DNA of 64,000 nucleotides from a virus. Shown piece by piece: positions 2,370 through 38,667 of this stretch (positions are counted from its first letter, which is position 1; every line of letters starts with the position of its first letter). The stretch covers positions 1-64,000 of IMG/VR virus record IMGVR_UViG_3300036879_000022, one strand, 5' to 3'. A program made the position numbers and the translations under genes. The notes under the pieces are model-generated. The model was not told where the DNA came from. It searched no databases and worked only from the letters and a program-made list of their open reading frames with translations.

Positions 2370-2834
2370 TCACTTATCGATGTGACGATACGGCTTGACC
2401 TCGGAGCGGGGCAGGGGGACCGGCAGCTCGCGTAACGCCCGATCGATGCGATCGGCCAGCTCCAGCACGCCAACCTTCGGAGCATAGATCACGTGATCCG
2501 CACTCTCGGTCATCATGAGGTTGACCTTGTCGGCGCCCTCGAACATTCGCATGTCTGTCCGGTAGACCACGATGAGCTTGTTCTTGAAGCCATAGCCCAG
2601 CTCCCAGCACGTGCCGCTGTCCGGGTCTGACCCATCGAGATTGGCAAGGACGCAATCCGCCCAGTCGATCCCAGCGACATCACTCTCGAAGATCAGATCA
2701 GGCCGGTCGGACCGCTGCTCATGTTCTTGTGGCAGGAAGATTTCGTGGCCACGCAAGCGGAGCTGCTCAGCGAGGTCCGTATTGAAGCTGCACTCCGCCG
2801 TCGAAAAGAGTGCACCGGCCATATAAATTTTCAA
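2370..2834 (-). CDS. Nucleoside 2-deoxyribosyltransferase-like protein
   Basis: 154 residues. N-terminal MKIYMAGALF strand-loop binds the nucleoside in this family, and DGSDPDSGTCWELGYG (about 89-104) carries the conserved acidic residues and catalytic Glu before a glycine-rich turn. The family exchanges or hydrolyses the base of (deoxy)nucleosides, serving nucleotide salvage; some phage members are nucleotide hydrolases. Overlaps the upstream stop by four bases. Fits with the other nucleotide-pool enzymes at 6118-6816 and 19150-20052. Confidence 0.85.
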   Translation of the reverse strand: MKIYMAGALFSTAECSFNTDLAEQLRLRGHEIFLPQEHEQRSDRPDLIFESDVAGIDWADCVLANLDGSDPDSGTCWELGYGFKNKLIVVYRTDMRMFEGADKVNLMMTESADHVIYAPKVGVLELADRIDRALRELPVPLPRSEVKPYRHIDK

Positions 2835-3028
2835 GATACAGTCCTCTGGTTGATAACGCGCTCAATCAGCGCAACAAGTAGCGGCTGGGTTGCCGTGATC
2901 GACGCCGATCCGTCCACATCTTCCTTTACGGTATACCCCAACTCATAAGCAAGCTCGATTAGGAGTGCGCCCTCCGCGTCATCGTCTGTCCGGAGGACCG
3001 TGAACACAAGCCTGTCGTCCCCTATCAT
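2831..3028 (-). CDS. Uncharacterised 65-residue acidic protein
   Basis: Four-base overlaps at both ends. Sequence has a DDDAEGALLIELAYELGYTV helix and a strand-rich end. No family recognised. Confidence 0.65.
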   Translation of the reverse strand: MIGDDRLVFTVLRTDDDAEGALLIELAYELGYTVKEDVDGSASITATQPLLVALIERVINQRTVS

Positions 3029-3237
3029 CTGGGCTCTCCGAATGGGTGGCGCCGCACGATCTCCTTGACGCCGTCCGCGAATGTGTCGGCGGCTGTCTTC
3101 TGGAATGATGGCTTGAGCTTCTTGCGGATGATGCGGGCGAGCCGCTGAGCATCCGGGCTGAGCCCCATCGCGTCGAGATCGAGCCCGAGCACGGTCTCAA
3201 TGAGGACGGCCTCTTTGTCAGTCAGTTCGACGTTCAT
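3025..3237 (-). CDS. Uncharacterised 70-residue protein
   Basis: I chose ATG 3237 (MNVELTDKEAV) over an upstream in-frame start at 3273, since the latter falls in a strong hairpin (3258-3294) and the former has an agagcgag sequence just before it. Helical protein with a C-terminal basic region (RIIRKKLKPSFQKTA). No family recognised. Confidence 0.65.
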   Translation of the reverse strand: MNVELTDKEAVLIETVLGLDLDAMGLSPDAQRLARIIRKKLKPSFQKTAADTFADGVKEIVRRHPFGEPR

Positions 3238-6876: not shown

Positions 6877-7140
6877 TTAGGCTGAAGCGCCGCGCCGTGT
6901 GATGCTCGTCGAGCTGGCGAGCTTGCGGATGTCGTCGATCAGGCCATCCGCGAAACCGGCGATGAGCGAGGGGCCGGCGTTGGCGATCTCTTCGTGCTGT
7001 TCATTCGAGAGATCGGGCTGCTCGTGCATTTGTTCGATCTCTTCGAACGTCGAAATGATTTCCTTGATTGAAAGCCCGGCGCGGTATGCGGAAAGGCCCT
7101 GAGTGTAGCGAGCGGGGACAATGACGGGATGGCGCGACAT
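6877..7140 (-). CDS. Uncharacterised 87-residue protein
   Basis: Acidic helical centre (IKEIISTFEEIEQMHEQ) and a possible amphipathic helix (IAGFADGLIDDIRKLAS). Preceded on this strand by a possible promoter TTGCAA-N17-TAGGCA (about 7204-7171). No family recognised. Confidence 0.65.
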   Translation of the reverse strand: MSRHPVIVPARYTQGLSAYRAGLSIKEIISTFEEIEQMHEQPDLSNEQHEEIANAGPSLIAGFADGLIDDIRKLASSTSITRRGASA

Positions 7141-7210
7141 GGACAGCTCCAGATATGGTTAATGCAGGACGATGCCTACACGAACTCTGGAGGGATTGCA
7201 AGGGGGTTGA

Positions 7211-7246
7211 CAAAGAAAAACGCCGCCCCTGCAAACTGGGGCGGCG
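7211..7246 (-). terminator. Rho-independent terminator of the tRNA transcript
   Basis: Perfect 9-bp stem cgccgcccc (7221-7229) / ggggcggcg (7238-7246) with an 8-base loop; on the minus strand it is followed directly by tttttcttt. It closes the transcription unit that begins near 8428. Confidence 0.9.
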
Positions 7247-7321
7247 CCATTCATGTTTCTTTCCGTCACGTGACCCGAGCTTACCGCTTGCCAGCGCCCG
7301 GCGGGGTGGAACCCATTAGCG

Positions 7322-8083: not shown

Positions 8084-8142
8084 AAAGATCAGGACCAGCT
8101 TTGCGATTGCGCGGCGGCGATAATAGTCGATGTGGGATTATT

Positions 8143-8220
8143 GGTCAGGGCGGCAGGATTTGAACCTGCGTTCTTCTGGGTCCGGGCCAGACGGGGACAG
8201 CCAAACTCCCCCACGCCCTG
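8143..8220 (-). tRNA. tRNA-Pro (CGG) with C33
   Basis: 78 nt, CCA encoded, perfect acceptor CAGGGCG/CGCCCTG. Anticodon loop CCCGGAC in TCTGG/CCAGA reads CGG but has C instead of the near-universal U at position 33. T arm GCAGG-TTCAAAT-CCTGC. Confidence 0.85.
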
Positions 8221-8320
8221 TTTAGGGCTTGGGTTGGTCGGGCTGTTTGCGCTGCGGCTCATCATCGGAACATCCTCGGTCTTCGACGTTGTAGGCGTGC
8301 GTATGACGCCTCGTTCGTTT

Positions 8321-8409
8321 CCCAGTGCATCCCCGCGAAGCTACCCGACCGAAATCGGGGACCGCTCGAAAGCGGTGCTTCTACGGGGCGATGTAGACGG
8401 GCCACTGGG
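8321..8409 (-). ncRNA. Structured leader RNA at the head of the tRNA transcript
   Basis: Nested helices read on the minus strand: outer cccagtg/cactggg (8403-8409 with 8321-8327), then catc..ccccg with cggggatg (8384-8393 with 8328-8335), then gaagc/gcttc (8377-8381 with 8337-8341), enclosing two hairpins: accgct-ttcg-agcggt (8361-8376) and cccga-tttcgg-tcggg (8344-8359). This is a three-way junction some 20 bases after the predicted transcription start. No reading frame explains it and it is not a cloverleaf. A further aggcgt/acgcct hairpin follows at 8293-8311. Function unknown. Confidence 0.7.
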
Positions 8410-8434
8410 CTCTCGTCGCTAACTCAGGGTGCGG

Positions 8435-8463
8435 CTTATAGAGGAAGTCAAATGGCTTGTCAA
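8435..8463 (-). promoter_or_regulatory. Sigma-70-type promoter of the tRNA array
   Basis: TTGACA (8463-8458), 17-base spacer, TATAAG (8440-8435): the strongest promoter match in the window. Predicted start near 8428, before the structured leader and nine tRNAs. Confidence 0.9.
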
Positions 8464-8466
8464 TCC

Positions 8467-8670
8467 CTAAATCGCCGCCCATGGATCAACTCGTGTATTC
8501 TGCATCTCATAGACCGCCTTGTTATAAGCGACAGCCGTCGCGCGCAGCGGATGATTGACGCATGCGGGGGAGCGCAGCCAGTTCACGAAAGCCTGAAACG
8601 TGTCGATCCGCATCGCGTGCGCCTCACGCAACGGGGCTTCGAGCCGGTCAATCTCTGTCAGTCCTTCCAT
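8467..8670 (-). CDS. Uncharacterised 67-residue protein
   Basis: Starts inside the end of rtcB (13-base overlap) after a gagggagaa site. Helical, with a FQAFVNWLRSP segment. Ends just upstream of the tRNA promoter. No family recognised. Confidence 0.6.
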   Translation of the reverse strand: MEGLTEIDRLEAPLREAHAMRIDTFQAFVNWLRSPACVNHPLRATAVAYNKAVYEMQNTRVDPWAAI

Positions 8671-10049
8671 GGGTCAAATTCTCCCTCGCCCGCCATCGCG
8701 ACGGCAAATGGTCGCAAAGTATGGAGCACCTTAACCGAACCCGCGTGGTGCGCCAGAACGTCCGGGAGCCTCCGGTATGCCATCGGGCTTTCGTCGAGAT
8801 CAGCGCCCACGAGCGTCACGCCACGGGCCTGAAGCCACTGATCCATCTGATCCTTGGTGAACGTGCGCTTGGCCTGCTTGCGGCCCATGACGCGGCCGGC
8901 GCCGTGCACGGTCGAATAGAGCGCGGCCTTGGCTTCGGGGCTATCGATGCCTTCGAGGATCACGGCGTCGTCGCCCATGGAGCCGCCGACGAAGCCCCTC
9001 TGGCCCGGGAACGCGGGCGTCGCGCCCTTGCGGACCACGAGCAGCTCGCGCTCGACGCCGTTGATGTTGTGCGTCTCTTTCCACGCGTAGTTGTGATGGT
9101 TGTGGATGCTCTCCGTGACGTTACCGCCGATGATCTGCCGGACGCGCTCGGTCACCCAGTTGCGGCCGGCGCAGGCGTACTCCCCGGCGAGCTTCATCGC
9201 TTCATAGTAGCGCGCACCGACCTCCGTGTTGAGGTTGACGACAGCGGGCGCAACGTTGATCCCATCGGTGCCGCCCGCGAGCTTGATATACTTGCTCGCC
9301 GACGTGTGGCCCAGACCACGCGAACCGAAGTGCACGCCGATCCAGACGTAGCCCTCTTCGTCGCGGAGGATGTCCACATAATGGTTGCCGGAGCCGACCG
9401 TGCCGAGCTGGGCTCGCGCCTTCTGGCGATAGTCTTCCATCTGGGCAGCGCGCCACACTTCATCCGCATCAAACAGCTCATGCTCGACACGCTCATCGTT
9501 CGAGCGCCCGACGCCAAATGAGATCGTCTTCTGCACGTCACGGATGATCGTCGGGATGTGCTCGGCGATGTCCGCGAACTTTGTGTCAAGCCGCACGGCC
9601 TTGTTGCCGCACCCGATGTCGAAGCCGACGCCGGAGATGGAGACGTGGCCCTTGTCGTATGCGATGACGCCGCCGACAGGCTGGGCGTAGCCGAGATGAC
9701 CGTCCGCACAGATCACGCCGGCCACGACGTTGCCGACCTTCATGCAGTTTTTCATCTGTTCGATCGTCTGATCGTCGTGCTCGCCGAAAATCGTCAGCGG
9801 CGCGTTCGCGTAGTCGGCCGTCTGGGCGGGCACCGACATTGCGGCGAGCTTGTCCGCGAGAACTTTCTGCTCGGCAGCAATCATTTCCTTGCGCGCGCCG
9901 TCACGGTACTCGGTCCATGCAGGGTGACCCCGGCCCATGGCCTGTTTCGTGGCGTCCCACTCTGCGCCATGTCGAGCGTCCGGGTTGAACCCGGCTTCGA
10001 GGCAGAGCTGGCGAGCGCGATGTTCATGCGGATCGGTACGTTGTGCCAA
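8658..10049 (-). CDS. rtcB: RtcB-family RNA ligase
   Basis: 463 residues, normal length. Seen: CADGHLGYAQPVGGV (metal-binding His/Asp), FDIGCG with the metal-ligand Cys (143-148), GSGNHY, HFGSRGLGH, NHHNYA, and VHGAGRVMGR, whose His accepts GMP in the known mechanism. RtcB joins 2',3'-cyclic phosphate (or 3'-phosphate) ends to 5'-OH ends, the breaks left by many anticodon nucleases. Its place beside nine tRNA genes suggests repair of tRNAs cut by host defence (inference). No archease is visible. Confidence 0.95.
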   Translation of the reverse strand: MAQRTDPHEHRARQLCLEAGFNPDARHGAEWDATKQAMGRGHPAWTEYRDGARKEMIAAEQKVLADKLAAMSVPAQTADYANAPLTIFGEHDDQTIEQMKNCMKVGNVVAGVICADGHLGYAQPVGGVIAYDKGHVSISGVGFDIGCGNKAVRLDTKFADIAEHIPTIIRDVQKTISFGVGRSNDERVEHELFDADEVWRAAQMEDYRQKARAQLGTVGSGNHYVDILRDEEGYVWIGVHFGSRGLGHTSASKYIKLAGGTDGINVAPAVVNLNTEVGARYYEAMKLAGEYACAGRNWVTERVRQIIGGNVTESIHNHHNYAWKETHNINGVERELLVVRKGATPAFPGQRGFVGGSMGDDAVILEGIDSPEAKAALYSTVHGAGRVMGRKQAKRTFTKDQMDQWLQARGVTLVGADLDESPMAYRRLPDVLAHHAGSVKVLHTLRPFAVAMAGEGEFDPWKD

Positions 10050-18806: not shown

Positions 18807-18983
18807 TTATTTCCCCGCTTTAATTCTGGCGCAGATGCGAAGTGCTGCGCATGCTGCCTCGACGATCTCGCCAGTTGCTAGTTGAATGCGCTTGCCATCG
18901 CGCACTTCGTATTTCGGCTTTTCGAGGATGCTCGCGTAAGGGAGCATCGTCTCTGGGGCCGGAAGCTCTTCTAGGAGGTCCAC
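18807..18983 (-). CDS. Uncharacterised 58-residue protein
   Basis: Start set at GTG 18983, just after the upstream stop and preceded by gagagg, rather than a start at 19025 inside the neighbouring gene. Ends VEAACAALRICARIKAGK. No family recognised. Confidence 0.55.
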   Translation of the reverse strand: MDLLEELPAPETMLPYASILEKPKYEVRDGKRIQLATGEIVEAACAALRICARIKAGK

Positions 18984-18985
18984 GC

Positions 18986-19153
18986 TCAGGCCTCTCGCTT
19001 GATCAGCGCCTCCGCCGGCTTCCACCGGCCCGGGTTCTTGTAGAGCACGAACCGGATCGGTCCAACCGAGAAGATGTCTTTCTTCTCACGTCGCCAAACG
19101 CCGAAGCGCCACGAGGACGGGAATATAACGATCCCGAAGGCGATGGTCTTCAT
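18986..19153 (-). CDS. Uncharacterised 55-residue protein
   Basis: Begins MKTIAFGIVIFPSSWRFG, with a gagag site, and overlaps the HD-domain gene's stop by four bases. N-terminal hydrophobic strand, C-terminal basic tail. No family recognised. Confidence 0.55.
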   Translation of the reverse strand: MKTIAFGIVIFPSSWRFGVWRREKKDIFSVGPIRFVLYKNPGRWKPAEALIKREA

Positions 19154-20052
19154 GCTGCTCTCTCCATGATCTCGAAGTTGCCGTGAACCCACTTCCACTG
19201 GGGACGCGGGAAAGTGCCGCCGGTCGTATCGCGAACCACGATGCCTTCATCGTCGTGAAGACGAACCCGGCCGACATGACCTTTAACATCCACTTCGAGC
19301 ACGTCAAGCGATTTCCGAGTATCGCTGTTCGTTTGATGGAAGACATTCACCGGGAGGCCCCACGAATAGTTGATGTACTGATAGGAGCCATAGACCTCCT
19401 TCGAGTACGCCGCGTACATCATCAAGAATTGCTTCTCGGCGTCAGCCGGCGACCACGGCTCGATCTTGATGCCGATCAGCTCCAGATGGTGGCCCCAGTC
19501 GAGCCCGCTCCGCGACATCAGCGCGGCGCGTTCGTCCACGATGATCCGGCTGTCGAGTTCGTCTTGGATCGCGAGCATGGGCAAATCTTTCCATCCCATC
19601 CACTCGCGGATCACGTCGTTGATCGCGTGGTCCCAGACACGGTACTGCGGCATGTACTGCTTGACCGGACGCGGGATGTCCACGAGATAGGCTTCGGGAG
19701 CATCATGCATCAAAATTTGAAGGCAGTCGAGCGCCGAGCCGCCGTGGTTCGCCAGCCACGCCGCCAGCAAACAACAGTGCTGGGCCACGCTGTAGAAGAA
19801 CTGCACGTGGCCGGAGTAGCGGCACTGGTTGGCTAGGGCATGTGCGATGTCGATCACCGACAGCGCATCCATCGTCGGCTGGAGCGGCCAGAACGCGCGC
19901 CCAGTGTAGGTCTCGATAAATGTCGCGGCCCGATAGGCCGTGTCGGTCTTCAGGATCGCCGCGTCATCTGCCTGTGTGATGTGGCGCGGATCGAAATTCT
20001 TGTATGACACGTCCACGGGGGACATGCCTTCGCCGATCGCTTTGGGGGACAT
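19150..20052 (-). CDS. HD-domain nucleotide phosphohydrolase (YfbR/DatZ-like)
   Basis: 300 residues. FWPLQPTMDALSVIDIAHAL (54-73) and the HD ligands H92 (SVAQHC), H116-D117 (LMHDAPEAYLVD) and a later Asp in DERAALMS match the YfbR-type 5'-nucleotidase fold, used by phages to remove dNTPs or dNMPs. DatZ of aminoadenine phages is a relative. The last ~85 residues, beta-rich with VDVKGHVGRVRLHDDEG, are an extra domain not seen in short family members. Start ATG 20052 has taggagat. Confidence 0.8.
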   Translation of the reverse strand: MSPKAIGEGMSPVDVSYKNFDPRHITQADDAAILKTDTAYRAATFIETYTGRAFWPLQPTMDALSVIDIAHALANQCRYSGHVQFFYSVAQHCCLLAAWLANHGGSALDCLQILMHDAPEAYLVDIPRPVKQYMPQYRVWDHAINDVIREWMGWKDLPMLAIQDELDSRIIVDERAALMSRSGLDWGHHLELIGIKIEPWSPADAEKQFLMMYAAYSKEVYGSYQYINYSWGLPVNVFHQTNSDTRKSLDVLEVDVKGHVGRVRLHDDEGIVVRDTTGGTFPRPQWKWVHGNFEIMERAA

Positions 20053-20316: not shown

Positions 20317-22902
20317 CTACTTCCTTAAACGTGGTCCGACCCAGCCCTCCGCCGTGATTGGCATGCCCGGCGCCCAGATCGGTACGATAGACATGATTGC
20401 CTCAAATTCCTGCACATTACAAGTGTCAATTACTGCCTCCGCGATGACCTCGTCATGGATCGACAAAAGCAAGTCAAACTCGGGCATTTCGTCGATCCGG
20501 AGCATCGCTTCCGCGAGCAGATCACGCGACGATGCCTGATCATAATTCTCGACAAGCGAACCGCCGTGCGTTCCGCATCGCTTCCACTGTTTAGTGTAGG
20601 TATCACGCCCCATGAATGACAGATGCGGCGAGACGAAGCTCTCCGGCGGATCGGGGAGTAGCTTCTTGTGCTGCTTCTCCGCGAGCTTCTCCGCGTGCCA
20701 GCGCACTTGATGCTGCGGCACTTTCTTCTTGGCGGGGAAGTTGATCGCGCAGGGGCGTCCGCGCTCATTGAGCGCAGCGAAGCGATACGTGACGCGCTGG
20801 CGAACTTGCGGATAGAGATAGGCGAGCAGTCGGCCGCTGGGCAGCCTGCAATGCAGGAAGTTGCCATCGTCGGACATGAAGTAGCTGACAGCTCCGATGC
20901 CTGTGATTGGGTCGCCGCCGCAGAAGTGCTCGCCGCCTTCAACCACCGCTGCGATAGCCGCCCTCTCGCTGTCGCGCCAGAGCATCGGGACTTCGGGGTA
21001 TTTGTCTTTGCGATAGACCTTGACGACCATCTGACAGAACTCGTCTTCAAGCCAAATGCCTTCGTCGGCCCAGACCGTCGCTTGGAACTTCTCCCATCCC
21101 ATCGCGTAGCCGAGGCCGAGCACCGCCTTCTTACCGAGGTTGCGCTCAGTCTTGTCGGCCTTCGTGATCAGGCGCTTGTAGATGCCGCTCGCCATGTCGC
21201 AGTAAATATCTTTGCCCGGCGTGAACATCGCGAGCATGTCAGCGCAGCCCGAGAGCCACGCGAGCTTGCGCGCCTCGATCGCATTGAAGTCGGCCGCGTA
21301 CAGCTCTTTGCCCGGGGATGCGATCAGCGCGCCACGGCAGGCCTTGGCGAGCATCACCATCGGCTCGCCCCACATCATCGTGATCAGGTCGTGATCGAGA
21401 TGCATGATATCGTTCCATGCATCGCCCATCTCGTCGAACCCGTCAGATGTCAGCTTCTTGTATCCGCCGCCGTAGCCGCGAACGAAGTTGTGCGGCTGCA
21501 CACCTTTGCCGGACCATCGGCCCGTGCGGTCAGCTCCGTTGTAGAGCATGATGTCGTGCAGGCGATCGTCGGGGCAGACGCTCTGGAGCATGCGCTTGTA
21601 TTTGGCGACCGATGAGCGGTTGACCTCCATGCAGATGCGGAGCGCCCGTTCGACGTACTCGCCCTCCGGACCGAACGCATCCCACTTCTCTCGACTGGGC
21701 TCCAGAGCAGCCTCGCGTGCCTCGTCGCCGGCTTTCGTCGGGACGCCGTCGAGCGCGAAGCTGAGCGTGTCGGCCTTGGTATCCTTCAGTGGCTCGCCGC
21801 CCAGCTCAGTTAGCTTGTCATTCGCCCAGCGCAGGAGCGCGGTGCGTTGCGAGCCCTTGAGCACGCGGTTGCCCGTCAGGGCGGCCAGCTCGCCATTGAG
21901 CCTCTTGGCCTCTTCGGCGGCATAGTCAAACGCGGTTTGCGCGGCCGGGATATCGAGCGCGACGCCCCGCAGGTTCATGCGGAAGTCCATGAGCCAATAC
22001 TCACGCTCACGATCGGTCATCTCGGGGCAGAACTCCGAGAGACCGCGCTCGGCGCGCACGTCGCCTTTGCAGTATTCCCAGTTGCGGCGATGCTCAATTT
22101 CTTCTTCGCAGAACCGGATTTCATTCGGGTTGATCGGGGCGGGCGCGCGGAGTTCGTTGTCCGGCGGCTCCACGTCGGTATAGACCCACTCTTCTCGCCT
22201 GACCTGACGGAGATAGCCCTTCTTGACCAACCGATCATTGAGGGAGTTACGCGCGCTCGCCCACGGCTCTTTCGTTGCCGGGTAGAACGGGACGAGGTCT
22301 TCGAGAATGTCGCGAGCCTCTACATTGGTCAGAACTTTGTCAGGCTCCCAGTTCGCGAGCACTTCCCGTTCGAAGGCGCCCTTCAGGGTCTCGCCCTCGG
22401 CCTTCTTGCGTCGTCGAGCCATTGGCTTCGATAGCTTGTTGATGAGCCGCTTGCCGTCCGCCACCTTGTGATAGGGGAGACCGAGCGCGGTGATTGCGTC
22501 CTCCAGCCCCCGGGGCAAGGATAGGCACGACGCTTTCGCTGCCGAGCAGAACATCTGTTCGAGCTGGAGCTTGACATCAAACATGGGAAACTCGCGCGTG
22601 AGCGCTTCATTCCAGATGTTGAACTCGAAGCCGGCGTTGTGCGCTTCGACCGGCTCGCCGTCGCGGATGCGCTCGATTAGTTCATCGGGGCGAGGGTCCG
22701 CCTCGCACCACGTGGTATTGGTGACCGGGTCATAGTGGCCCCGGTGCCAGAGATGCACAGGACCATCGATCGGCTCTTCTGGGAATTGCCAGCACAGGCA
22801 CAAGGCTTGCGTGCTCGTGTCGAGCGCGTAGCGCCGCTGACCCCACTTTAGGAGGTCGGCGACGCTTCGCGTTTCGAAGTCGATCGTGATCGGCCTGATC
22901 AT
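20317..22902 (-). CDS. Family A DNA polymerase with 3'-5' exonuclease domain
   Basis: 861 residues. Exonuclease: D8 and E10 in TIDFETRS, HNAGFEFNIW (88-97) and WEYCKGD with the Tyr-x3-Asp of Exo III. Polymerase: GADRTGRWSGKGVQPHN, motif A YAADFNAIEARKLAW, motif B KTERNLGKKAVLGLGYAMG and motif C LLSIHDEVIAEA. This is the phage PolA type that travels with Enc34-SSB, DUF2800 and VRR-NUC genes. It is the likely replicative polymerase. Its stop is nine bases before the next gene; start overlaps the upstream gene by four. Confidence 0.95.
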   Translation of the reverse strand: MIRPITIDFETRSVADLLKWGQRRYALDTSTQALCLCWQFPEEPIDGPVHLWHRGHYDPVTNTTWCEADPRPDELIERIRDGEPVEAHNAGFEFNIWNEALTREFPMFDVKLQLEQMFCSAAKASCLSLPRGLEDAITALGLPYHKVADGKRLINKLSKPMARRRKKAEGETLKGAFEREVLANWEPDKVLTNVEARDILEDLVPFYPATKEPWASARNSLNDRLVKKGYLRQVRREEWVYTDVEPPDNELRAPAPINPNEIRFCEEEIEHRRNWEYCKGDVRAERGLSEFCPEMTDREREYWLMDFRMNLRGVALDIPAAQTAFDYAAEEAKRLNGELAALTGNRVLKGSQRTALLRWANDKLTELGGEPLKDTKADTLSFALDGVPTKAGDEAREAALEPSREKWDAFGPEGEYVERALRICMEVNRSSVAKYKRMLQSVCPDDRLHDIMLYNGADRTGRWSGKGVQPHNFVRGYGGGYKKLTSDGFDEMGDAWNDIMHLDHDLITMMWGEPMVMLAKACRGALIASPGKELYAADFNAIEARKLAWLSGCADMLAMFTPGKDIYCDMASGIYKRLITKADKTERNLGKKAVLGLGYAMGWEKFQATVWADEGIWLEDEFCQMVVKVYRKDKYPEVPMLWRDSERAAIAAVVEGGEHFCGGDPITGIGAVSYFMSDDGNFLHCRLPSGRLLAYLYPQVRQRVTYRFAALNERGRPCAINFPAKKKVPQHQVRWHAEKLAEKQHKKLLPDPPESFVSPHLSFMGRDTYTKQWKRCGTHGGSLVENYDQASSRDLLAEAMLRIDEMPEFDLLLSIHDEVIAEAVIDTCNVQEFEAIMSIVPIWAPGMPITAEGWVGPRLRK

Positions 22903-38236: not shown

Positions 38237-38631
38237 GCGATCGATACAACGGACGAGGCTTTGGCCCTCACGTACCAAGGTGCGCAAAGAGGGATGGGTA
38301 GCGAGCGGTTGACCAATCGAGCGTGATGGTTCTGAATGTTGAGACGGACTGCGGTCAGACCCGGGGGCAGTACCCGGCGCCTCCACCACGAGCAGCGCGA
38401 TGAGGCATGGATGCCTTGCACTAAATGTGCGTACACCCCTCGGGGAACACGCGCTGCTTCTGATGGGGGCGACACAGGATCGATGGACGCTCGGAAAGTC
38501 TCGAAAGTGAACTCGGCGTGATCTGCCGCGATCGGATCAAACACCTAAATGACAACGACAACTTTGTCATGGATCAGCGCCTCGCGGCGTAACGTTCCGG
38601 GGTTGGTCGCCTAGCAACAGAAAGACCCCAG
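38237..38631 (+). ncRNA. ssrA: Circularly permuted two-piece tmRNA
   Basis: The acceptor piece comes first and ends CGCCTCC-A-CCA (38378-38388), preceded by a T-arm-like ccggg-ggcagta-cccgg. After 76 bases, whose ends pair as gcagcgcg/cgcgctgc, the coding piece begins GGGGGCG (38465-38471). GGGGGCG pairs with CGCCTCC and includes the G3-U70 alanine identity pair. A reading frame at 38551-38592 encodes DNDNFVMDQRLAA and stops with taa. It rescues stalled ribosomes and tags the product for ClpXP. The permuted order and NDNF...AA tag are typical of alphaproteobacteria. Mature ends are not determined. Confidence 0.9.
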
Positions 38632-38667
38632 ACGCCCTAGCCGCAAGGCTGGGGCGTTTTGCTTTAT
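38632..38667 (+). terminator. tmRNA terminator
   Basis: acgccctagcc-gcaa-ggctggggcgt, 11-bp stem (one G-U), then ttttgcttta. Confidence 0.92.

Follow-up and report, generated by a model that had tools for sequence, protein, structure and literature searches.

Noncoding RNAs of phages are poorly catalogued, and one candidate lies in a 64,000-nt stretch of viral DNA (positions 1–64,000 of IMG/VR record IMGVR_UViG_3300036879_000022; called the window here). An earlier note on this DNA had described an unexplained structured RNA at 8321–8409, at the 5′ end of a transcript with nine tRNAs, and had offered a processing signal, a nuclease protector, an effector RNA or a decoy as its role. Is this structure real, where does it begin and end, and does it serve the tRNAs behind it or act by itself? 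We find that the RNA belongs, in reduced form, to a phage-specific family of structured noncoding RNAs that has not been curated before and is missing from Rfam.

Results

The RNA at the window locus

Behind the promoter, the locus carries the structured RNA (8418–8284), a spacer of approximately 60 nt and nine tRNAs; the promoter and the nine tRNAs had both been described correctly. The 5′ end of the RNA is located approximately 10 nt past the predicted transcription start. The untranslated transcript predicted from this promoter measures approximately 1.2 kb, and a strong hairpin past the last tRNA is its probable end. The features are listed below; "clade" refers to the related viral contigs described in the next section.

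8658–10049, minus strand: RtcB RNA ligase, directly upstream of the promoter of the tRNA array
8435–8463, minus strand: σ70-type promoter, near-consensus in sequence (TTGACA, 17 nt, TATAAG)
8284–8418, minus strand: whole conserved structured RNA, approximately 135 nt, delimited by clade homologues and agreeing folds
8414–8418, minus strand: 5′ strand of the closing helix P0, CGACG, pairing with 8284–8288
8410–8413, minus strand: P0–P1 junction AGAG, invariant in the clade and mostly GAG-AG in the wider family
8403–8409, minus strand: 5′ strand of P1, CCCAGUG, pairing with 8321–8327
8331–8388, minus strand: inner domain, a stem (8388–8377 with 8341–8331) bearing two UUCG hairpins
8376–8361 and 8359–8344, minus strand: the two UUCG hairpins in the window fold
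8321–8327, minus strand: 3′ strand of P1, CACUGGG, with AUG (8330–8328) just before it; the family consensus is NUGC
8312–8320, minus strand: P1–P3 junction AAACGAACG, invariant across the clade
8293–8311, minus strand: P3 hairpin AGGCGU..ACGCCU, the family signature, conserved in sequence
8289–8292, minus strand: P3–P0 junction ACAA, invariant in the clade
8284–8288, minus strand: 3′ strand of P0, CGUCG, pairing with 8414–8418
8142–8220, minus strand: tRNA-Pro(CGG), the first tRNA 3′ of the RNA, whose 5′ end is presumably cut by RNase P
7219–7248, minus strand: strong terminator-like hairpin past the last tRNA

The segment 8321–8409 is made of P1 and the inner domain and is part of a larger element. 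Its minus-strand fold has a 7-bp outer helix, a bulge-interrupted stem and two 6-bp inner hairpins. The fold given by the earlier note therefore stands, but not its extent, as P0 and P3 had been missed; both hairpin loops, rather than one, are UUCG. The minimum free energy of the segment is −43.4 kcal mol−1 (z = −3.57; equally good folds in 1 of 200 shuffles), and that of the full element is −57.1 kcal mol−1 (z = −2.69; 2 of 200). By itself, the folding energy is only moderately unusual, and the proof of the structure comes from conservation and compensatory changes rather than from energy. The plus strand of 8321–8409 also folds. We assign the RNA to the minus strand because the promoter, the homologues and the T-arm sequences fix its orientation. 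The element had been said not to form a cloverleaf, and indeed no tRNA above the Rfam or ARAGORN cut-off was found at 8284–8418; nor did Rfam match it to YrlA/Y RNA (RF02553), tmRNA or known ribozyme families.

Homologues in related contigs

Searches with RtcB and with sequence patterns yielded the contigs L002 (126.8 kb), L030 (93.8 kb), L065 (16.5 kb) and L081 (69.1 kb), in which the order of the parts is identical to that in the window. G008 (L151), with a DNA polymerase 70% identical, and G010 (L129) were added through DNA polymerase relatives. The promoter hexamers and the 17-nt spacing are identical in all six. Five of them, all except G010, carry the RNA behind this promoter, and tRNA-Pro is the next gene past the RNA that ARAGORN calls in each of the five. 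G008 holds a diverged copy between the same promoter and tRNA-Pro, in which several P0 pairs are changed (CCGAG/CUCGG) and the P1–P3 junction is long with an extra hairpin. In G010 (approximately 6986–7153), the promoter runs straight into tRNA-Pro; this contig is a natural comparison without the RNA.

The homologues measure 135, 133, 130, 123 and 119 nt. These differences are not multiples of three, and the RNA is therefore noncoding, as the lack of an explanatory reading frame had suggested. The junctions CGACGAGAGCC, GGAAACGAACGAGGCG and CGCCUACAACGUCG are constant in the clade. The P1 arm varies in sequence and length and yet still consists of P1 and a stem with two hairpins; P1 itself is CUGCGGG/CCCGCAG in L030, CUUGGG/CCCAAG in L081 and of the CUUUAG/CUAAAG type elsewhere. 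A covariance model built on the clade (R1) gave a single strong match per record in five clade records. The exact inner sequence of the window RNA had no match in viral contigs, and blastn of the window leader against cultured phages returned two chance-level matches only. The latter result is explained by divergence of the sequence, while the structure and junctions persist.

A wider family with compensatory changes

The wider family was retrieved from viral contigs by the P3 signature, which is present in the window at 8311–8293 as AGGCG/CGCCU followed by UAC, and by the long junction GCAACTAACACGAGGCG. The pattern GACGAGAG..GAAACGAACG retrieved chiefly unrelated loci. Contigs outside the clade showed the same architecture, many of them within large tRNA arrays. 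We then allowed P0 and P1 any partners up to 420 nt upstream, with position unrestricted. Most long-junction members had P0 flush to CGCCUA, followed by AG (two nucleotides) and then P1; most window-clade sequences were missed by this search, their P0 having a 1×2 internal loop. Single-sequence minimum-free-energy folds mostly contained P0, P1, a spacer hairpin, an inner stem, an extra hairpin and P3, with less clean folds for L194, L187 and L199. The additional hairpin (GGUAGC..GCGAGCAACUAACACG) occupies the P1–P3 junction in most family members. P0 pairs found elsewhere in the family include AAACGAG/CUCGUUU and AUAAGUG/CACUUAU.

A covariance model (R2) was built solely from L188, L194, L196, L175 and L182, with the window's clade excluded. 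It matched L030 (E = 7×10−8), L081 (E = 3×10−5) and members with a tRNA-like domain (down to E = 1×10−16). On the window record, the match was weak (E = 0.042) and fell exactly on 8284–8418, the sole candidate at E ≤ 0.1; in a 489-kb search, the window was again hit weakly (E = 0.24) at the exact coordinates. Since its own R2 score is weak, the window's membership rests on the bridges L030, L081 and G008, and we are highly confident that its RNA belongs to this family of phage junction RNAs.

The 24-member alignment (A5), which was fitted to R2, has 93.2% of its cells paired, compared to 71.1% when shuffled and 35–47% when slid. Two-sided (compensatory) changes occur at 24 of the 34 pairs. The covariation score reaches 0.431; shuffled alignments give 0.114 ± 0.012 (none of 500 as high), and slid ones at most 0.077. 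P0 and P1 show compensatory changes both in the window clade and in this alignment. The P3 helix yields no covariation because it is invariant, and this invariance is partly due to ascertainment, since several loci had been found by searching with P3. The covariation check that had been proposed for this locus was thus passed, and the structured RNA at the head of the tRNA transcript is real, conserved and covarying. The z-score of the whole element, merely −2.69, could be read as a chance fold of GC-rich DNA; compensatory change far above the controls refutes this reading, whose probability is negligible.

All 28 records checked that contain the RNA have one match each. Single copies, together with homing endonucleases near the RNA in phages CBB and EaPF7, would also suit an element acting as DNA (an origin, a packaging site or a homing target) with palindromes that only look like RNA. 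T-arm sequences, G–U pairs, conserved unpaired junctions and a constant orientation with respect to promoters and tRNAs make such an element extremely unlikely. The alignment and folds show that the core of the family is a constant three- or four-way junction (P0, P1, an optional extra hairpin and P3) with conserved joining sequences, and that the P1 arm holds an exchangeable inner domain.

The inner domain

Most family members have a tRNA-like domain inside P1, among them L187, L198 and MM7. In many, this domain shows a seven-pair acceptor-like stem and a T arm (GGUUCGA). With 49.5 bits in MM7 and 31.1 bits in Faunus, it exceeds the Rfam cut-off for tRNA. That of L198 stays below the cut-off; its anticodon arm carries an insertion of approximately 50 nt. 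The 3′ strand of the acceptor leads into UGC and P1 with no free CCA end. Because UGC/P1 replaces CCA, the domain as drawn would not be chargeable.

The window RNA has no tRNA-like domain; its place is held by 8331–8388 with the two UUCG hairpins. A stem with two hairpins is likewise seen in the rest of the window clade, G008, L175, L188, L194 and L196, and L182 has a two-hairpin inner domain with a weaker fold. The tRNA-like domain is missing in L175, L188, L194, L196 and G008 and is therefore not required for membership. Since the window clade has no T arm, the junction, rather than mimicry alone, bears the shared function.

Distribution

BLAST searches with family members identified cultured phages of Erwinia (ChrisDB, SNUABM, MM7, phiEa104, KEY, Faunus and EaPF7), Serratia (Moabite, 2050HW and ChuuTotoro), Pectobacterium (CBB, Arno18 and Wc4), Klebsiella (KP13-26) and Citrobacter (Tr1). 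For the MM7 RNA, matches were obtained in at least 64 records of cultured phages. Overall, the family spans many phages that are unrelated to one another, with Erwinia, Serratia, Klebsiella, Pectobacterium, Salmonella and others as hosts, plus alphaproteobacterial-type phages. In the cultured phages, the region is mostly unannotated or at times labeled "tRNA-OTHER" or "tRNA-Undet" (phiEa104, 21812–21884). Rfam searches of members at gathering and relaxed thresholds gave only tRNA and noise. An exact pattern search of 84,980 bacterial and archaeal genomes had no match, and neither did blastn against plasmids and E. coli genomes. We found no description of the family in the part of the literature that was covered; an earlier account in a subscription journal is possible.

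Relation to the tRNAs and to RtcB

Does the RNA act on the transcript that it heads? Six related contigs have it approximately 10 nt past a predicted start, within an untranslated transcript (approximately 1.2 kb in the window) and frequently with tRNA-Pro next. These features would fit a cis-acting leader of the tRNA operon, either an antitermination element similar to put of HK022 or a protective 5′ cap that guides processing. The wider family argues against it. In the 54-kb records of Faunus and EaPF7, the sole match to the tRNA model is the RNA's own domain. MM7, phiEa104 and Arno18 have a further promoter-like TTGACA sequence between the RNA and the tRNAs, and in ChrisDB, CBB and KP13-26 the RNA is located between tRNAs. 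In G010, the promoter and tRNA-Pro are both present and the RNA is not. The annotation of Yersinia phage P778 suggested another tRNA-free phage; this was rejected, as cmscan finds many tRNAs there.

Because of the tRNA-free phages, the extra promoters and the positions between tRNAs, a leader role is not the general function, and we consider the leader reading unlikely for the RNA as a whole. On the same observations and on G010, neither of two roles proposed earlier, a signal for processing the tRNA transcript and its protection, is supported as a general role. A local cis role is possible in the window clade, since the RNA there always heads the tRNA operon. As some carrier phages have no tRNA genes, the RNA probably acts by itself, outside tRNA production, and action in trans is likely. 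An effector or decoy reading of the window RNA, as had also been proposed, is possible.

RtcB adjoins the RNA locus upstream in the window and in L030, and is also present in L002. It was found in all five clade contigs that were tested, the sixth contig of the clade being G005. This neighborhood, the conserved junctions and the apparent permuted forms elsewhere could indicate a self-cleaving RNA or an RtcB substrate, for example one circularized by the neighboring ligase. Only 8 of 25 records overall carry RtcB, and no Rfam ribozyme family matches the RNA; we regard this option as very unlikely. On the same count, RtcB was rejected as an obligatory partner, and its adjacency in the window is probably incidental. 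As a separate observation, an RtcB beside a tRNA array possibly repairs tRNAs against host tRNA-cutting enzymes.

Discussion

Several known RNAs resemble parts of this family. The species 1 and 2 RNAs of T4 (rnaC and rnaD) are, like the window RNA, small RNAs of a phage tRNA cluster; they are stable, their function is unknown, and rnaC has a T-arm-like GGTTCGAATCCC. They differ in fold and have no P3/junction signature. R2 found no match in the T4 tRNA region (L201), and rnaC and rnaD are unsupported as family members. tmRNA also joins a tRNA-like domain to further domains, but the members have no match to it above the Rfam cut-off, UGC replaces the CCA end, and the window phage has a separate permuted tmRNA (38268–38632). 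The put antitermination RNA of HK022 is a structured RNA with which a phage transcript begins; the present family is not tied to transcription starts. GOLLD and ROOL, likewise structured and noncoding, have been reported from phages and from the neighborhood of tRNAs. Structures of both have been described (PMC12286853). They are far larger than the window RNA, which has no Rfam match.

The nearest known plan with two modules, a constant stem and a tRNA-like module, is that of YrlA (RF02553). By analogy with Y RNAs, the protein-binding stem would tether a Ro60-type protein or a ribonuclease, and RtcB beside the RNA in the window clade and the apparently permuted tRNA-like insert of L180 would agree with this. 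In the family described here, however, the constant module is a three- or four-way junction with P3. Members are far below the RF02553 cut-off (L187 scores 18.1 bits where 69 are required, and owes this score to generic T and D arms alone), and the TROVE (Ro60) protein is found in none of seven related phage records. A Y-RNA-like role is thus quite unlikely.

We favor, as a moderately probable overall reading, a stable phage RNA that acts in trans, combines a constant junction with what is usually a tRNA-mimicking arm, and engages a host factor. The window RNA would form the 5′ portion of the tRNA transcript and be released by an RNase P cut at tRNA-Pro, and trimming back to P0 would follow. 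Its paired ends would make the released RNA stable. The constant junction may bind a partner that is conserved among hosts, and the inner domain may be a tRNA mimic or an anchor. The most plausible role would be to occupy or titrate a host tRNA-binding protein during infection; candidate targets include a tRNA-handling enzyme, a ribonuclease and a tRNA-cutting defence protein. A purpose specifically as tRNA mimic or decoy is tentative. Equally tentatively, the four-way junction could present a locked tRNA mimic as a trap for a conserved host protein that binds or cuts tRNA, with the window clade having swapped in the two hairpins and kept the junction. In that clade, tRNA mimicry cannot be the whole function, because the T arm is missing.

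If this reading is correct, a widespread phage-specific class of RNA has been absent from databases. The tRNA-like domain hints at a tRNA-centered conflict between phage and host. Faunus and EaPF7, small phages with a single-copy RNA and no neighboring tRNAs, offer a clean genetic system, and the old question of what the stable non-tRNA RNAs of phage tRNA clusters do becomes directly testable.

Minor observations

The permuted tmRNA of the window is of the alphaproteobacterial type (plus strand, 120.7 bits, RF01849), and the related contig L145 has a tmRNA with a tag peptide at 18980–19377. A probable tRNA-Tyr that is absent from the ARAGORN output lies between the junction RNA and tRNA-Pro in L002 (approximately 2818–2901). 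In L113 and L114, the DNA polymerase match spans approximately 3.2 kb instead of 2.3–2.6 kb, which suggests an intein or intron. The tRNA-like domains of L187, L197 and L199 share an insert in the anticodon arm (AAGAACC..GUAGGC..CGCGUGG..CACGCCAGCCGAACGUAGUAAG), which suggests a further conserved subdomain.

The family member in L180 (3547–3683, minus strand) has an insert in the order T arm, capped acceptor, D arm, resembling a circularly permuted tRNA as in YrlA. L162, L165, L169, L178 and L185 contain genes for a tRNA or a tRNA-like RNA, in some cases with a long insertion in the anticodon arm. On their 3′ side lies a module that resembles the family junction with P0 capped and P1 open. Judged from single folds, L162, L178, L165 and L185 are possible circularly permuted relatives; the expected junction module was not seen in the fold of L162. 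L189 was rejected as a permuted form, as its arrangement proved ordinary. Immediately upstream of the P3 module of L162, ARAGORN calls a tRNA (1824–1896) with the anticodon UUA, which reads a stop codon. L177 is a viral contig with 29 tRNAs; its tRNA array, which also bears a member of the junction-RNA family, has a match to bacterial RNase P RNA at 2834–3123 (102 bits, barely above the cut-off).
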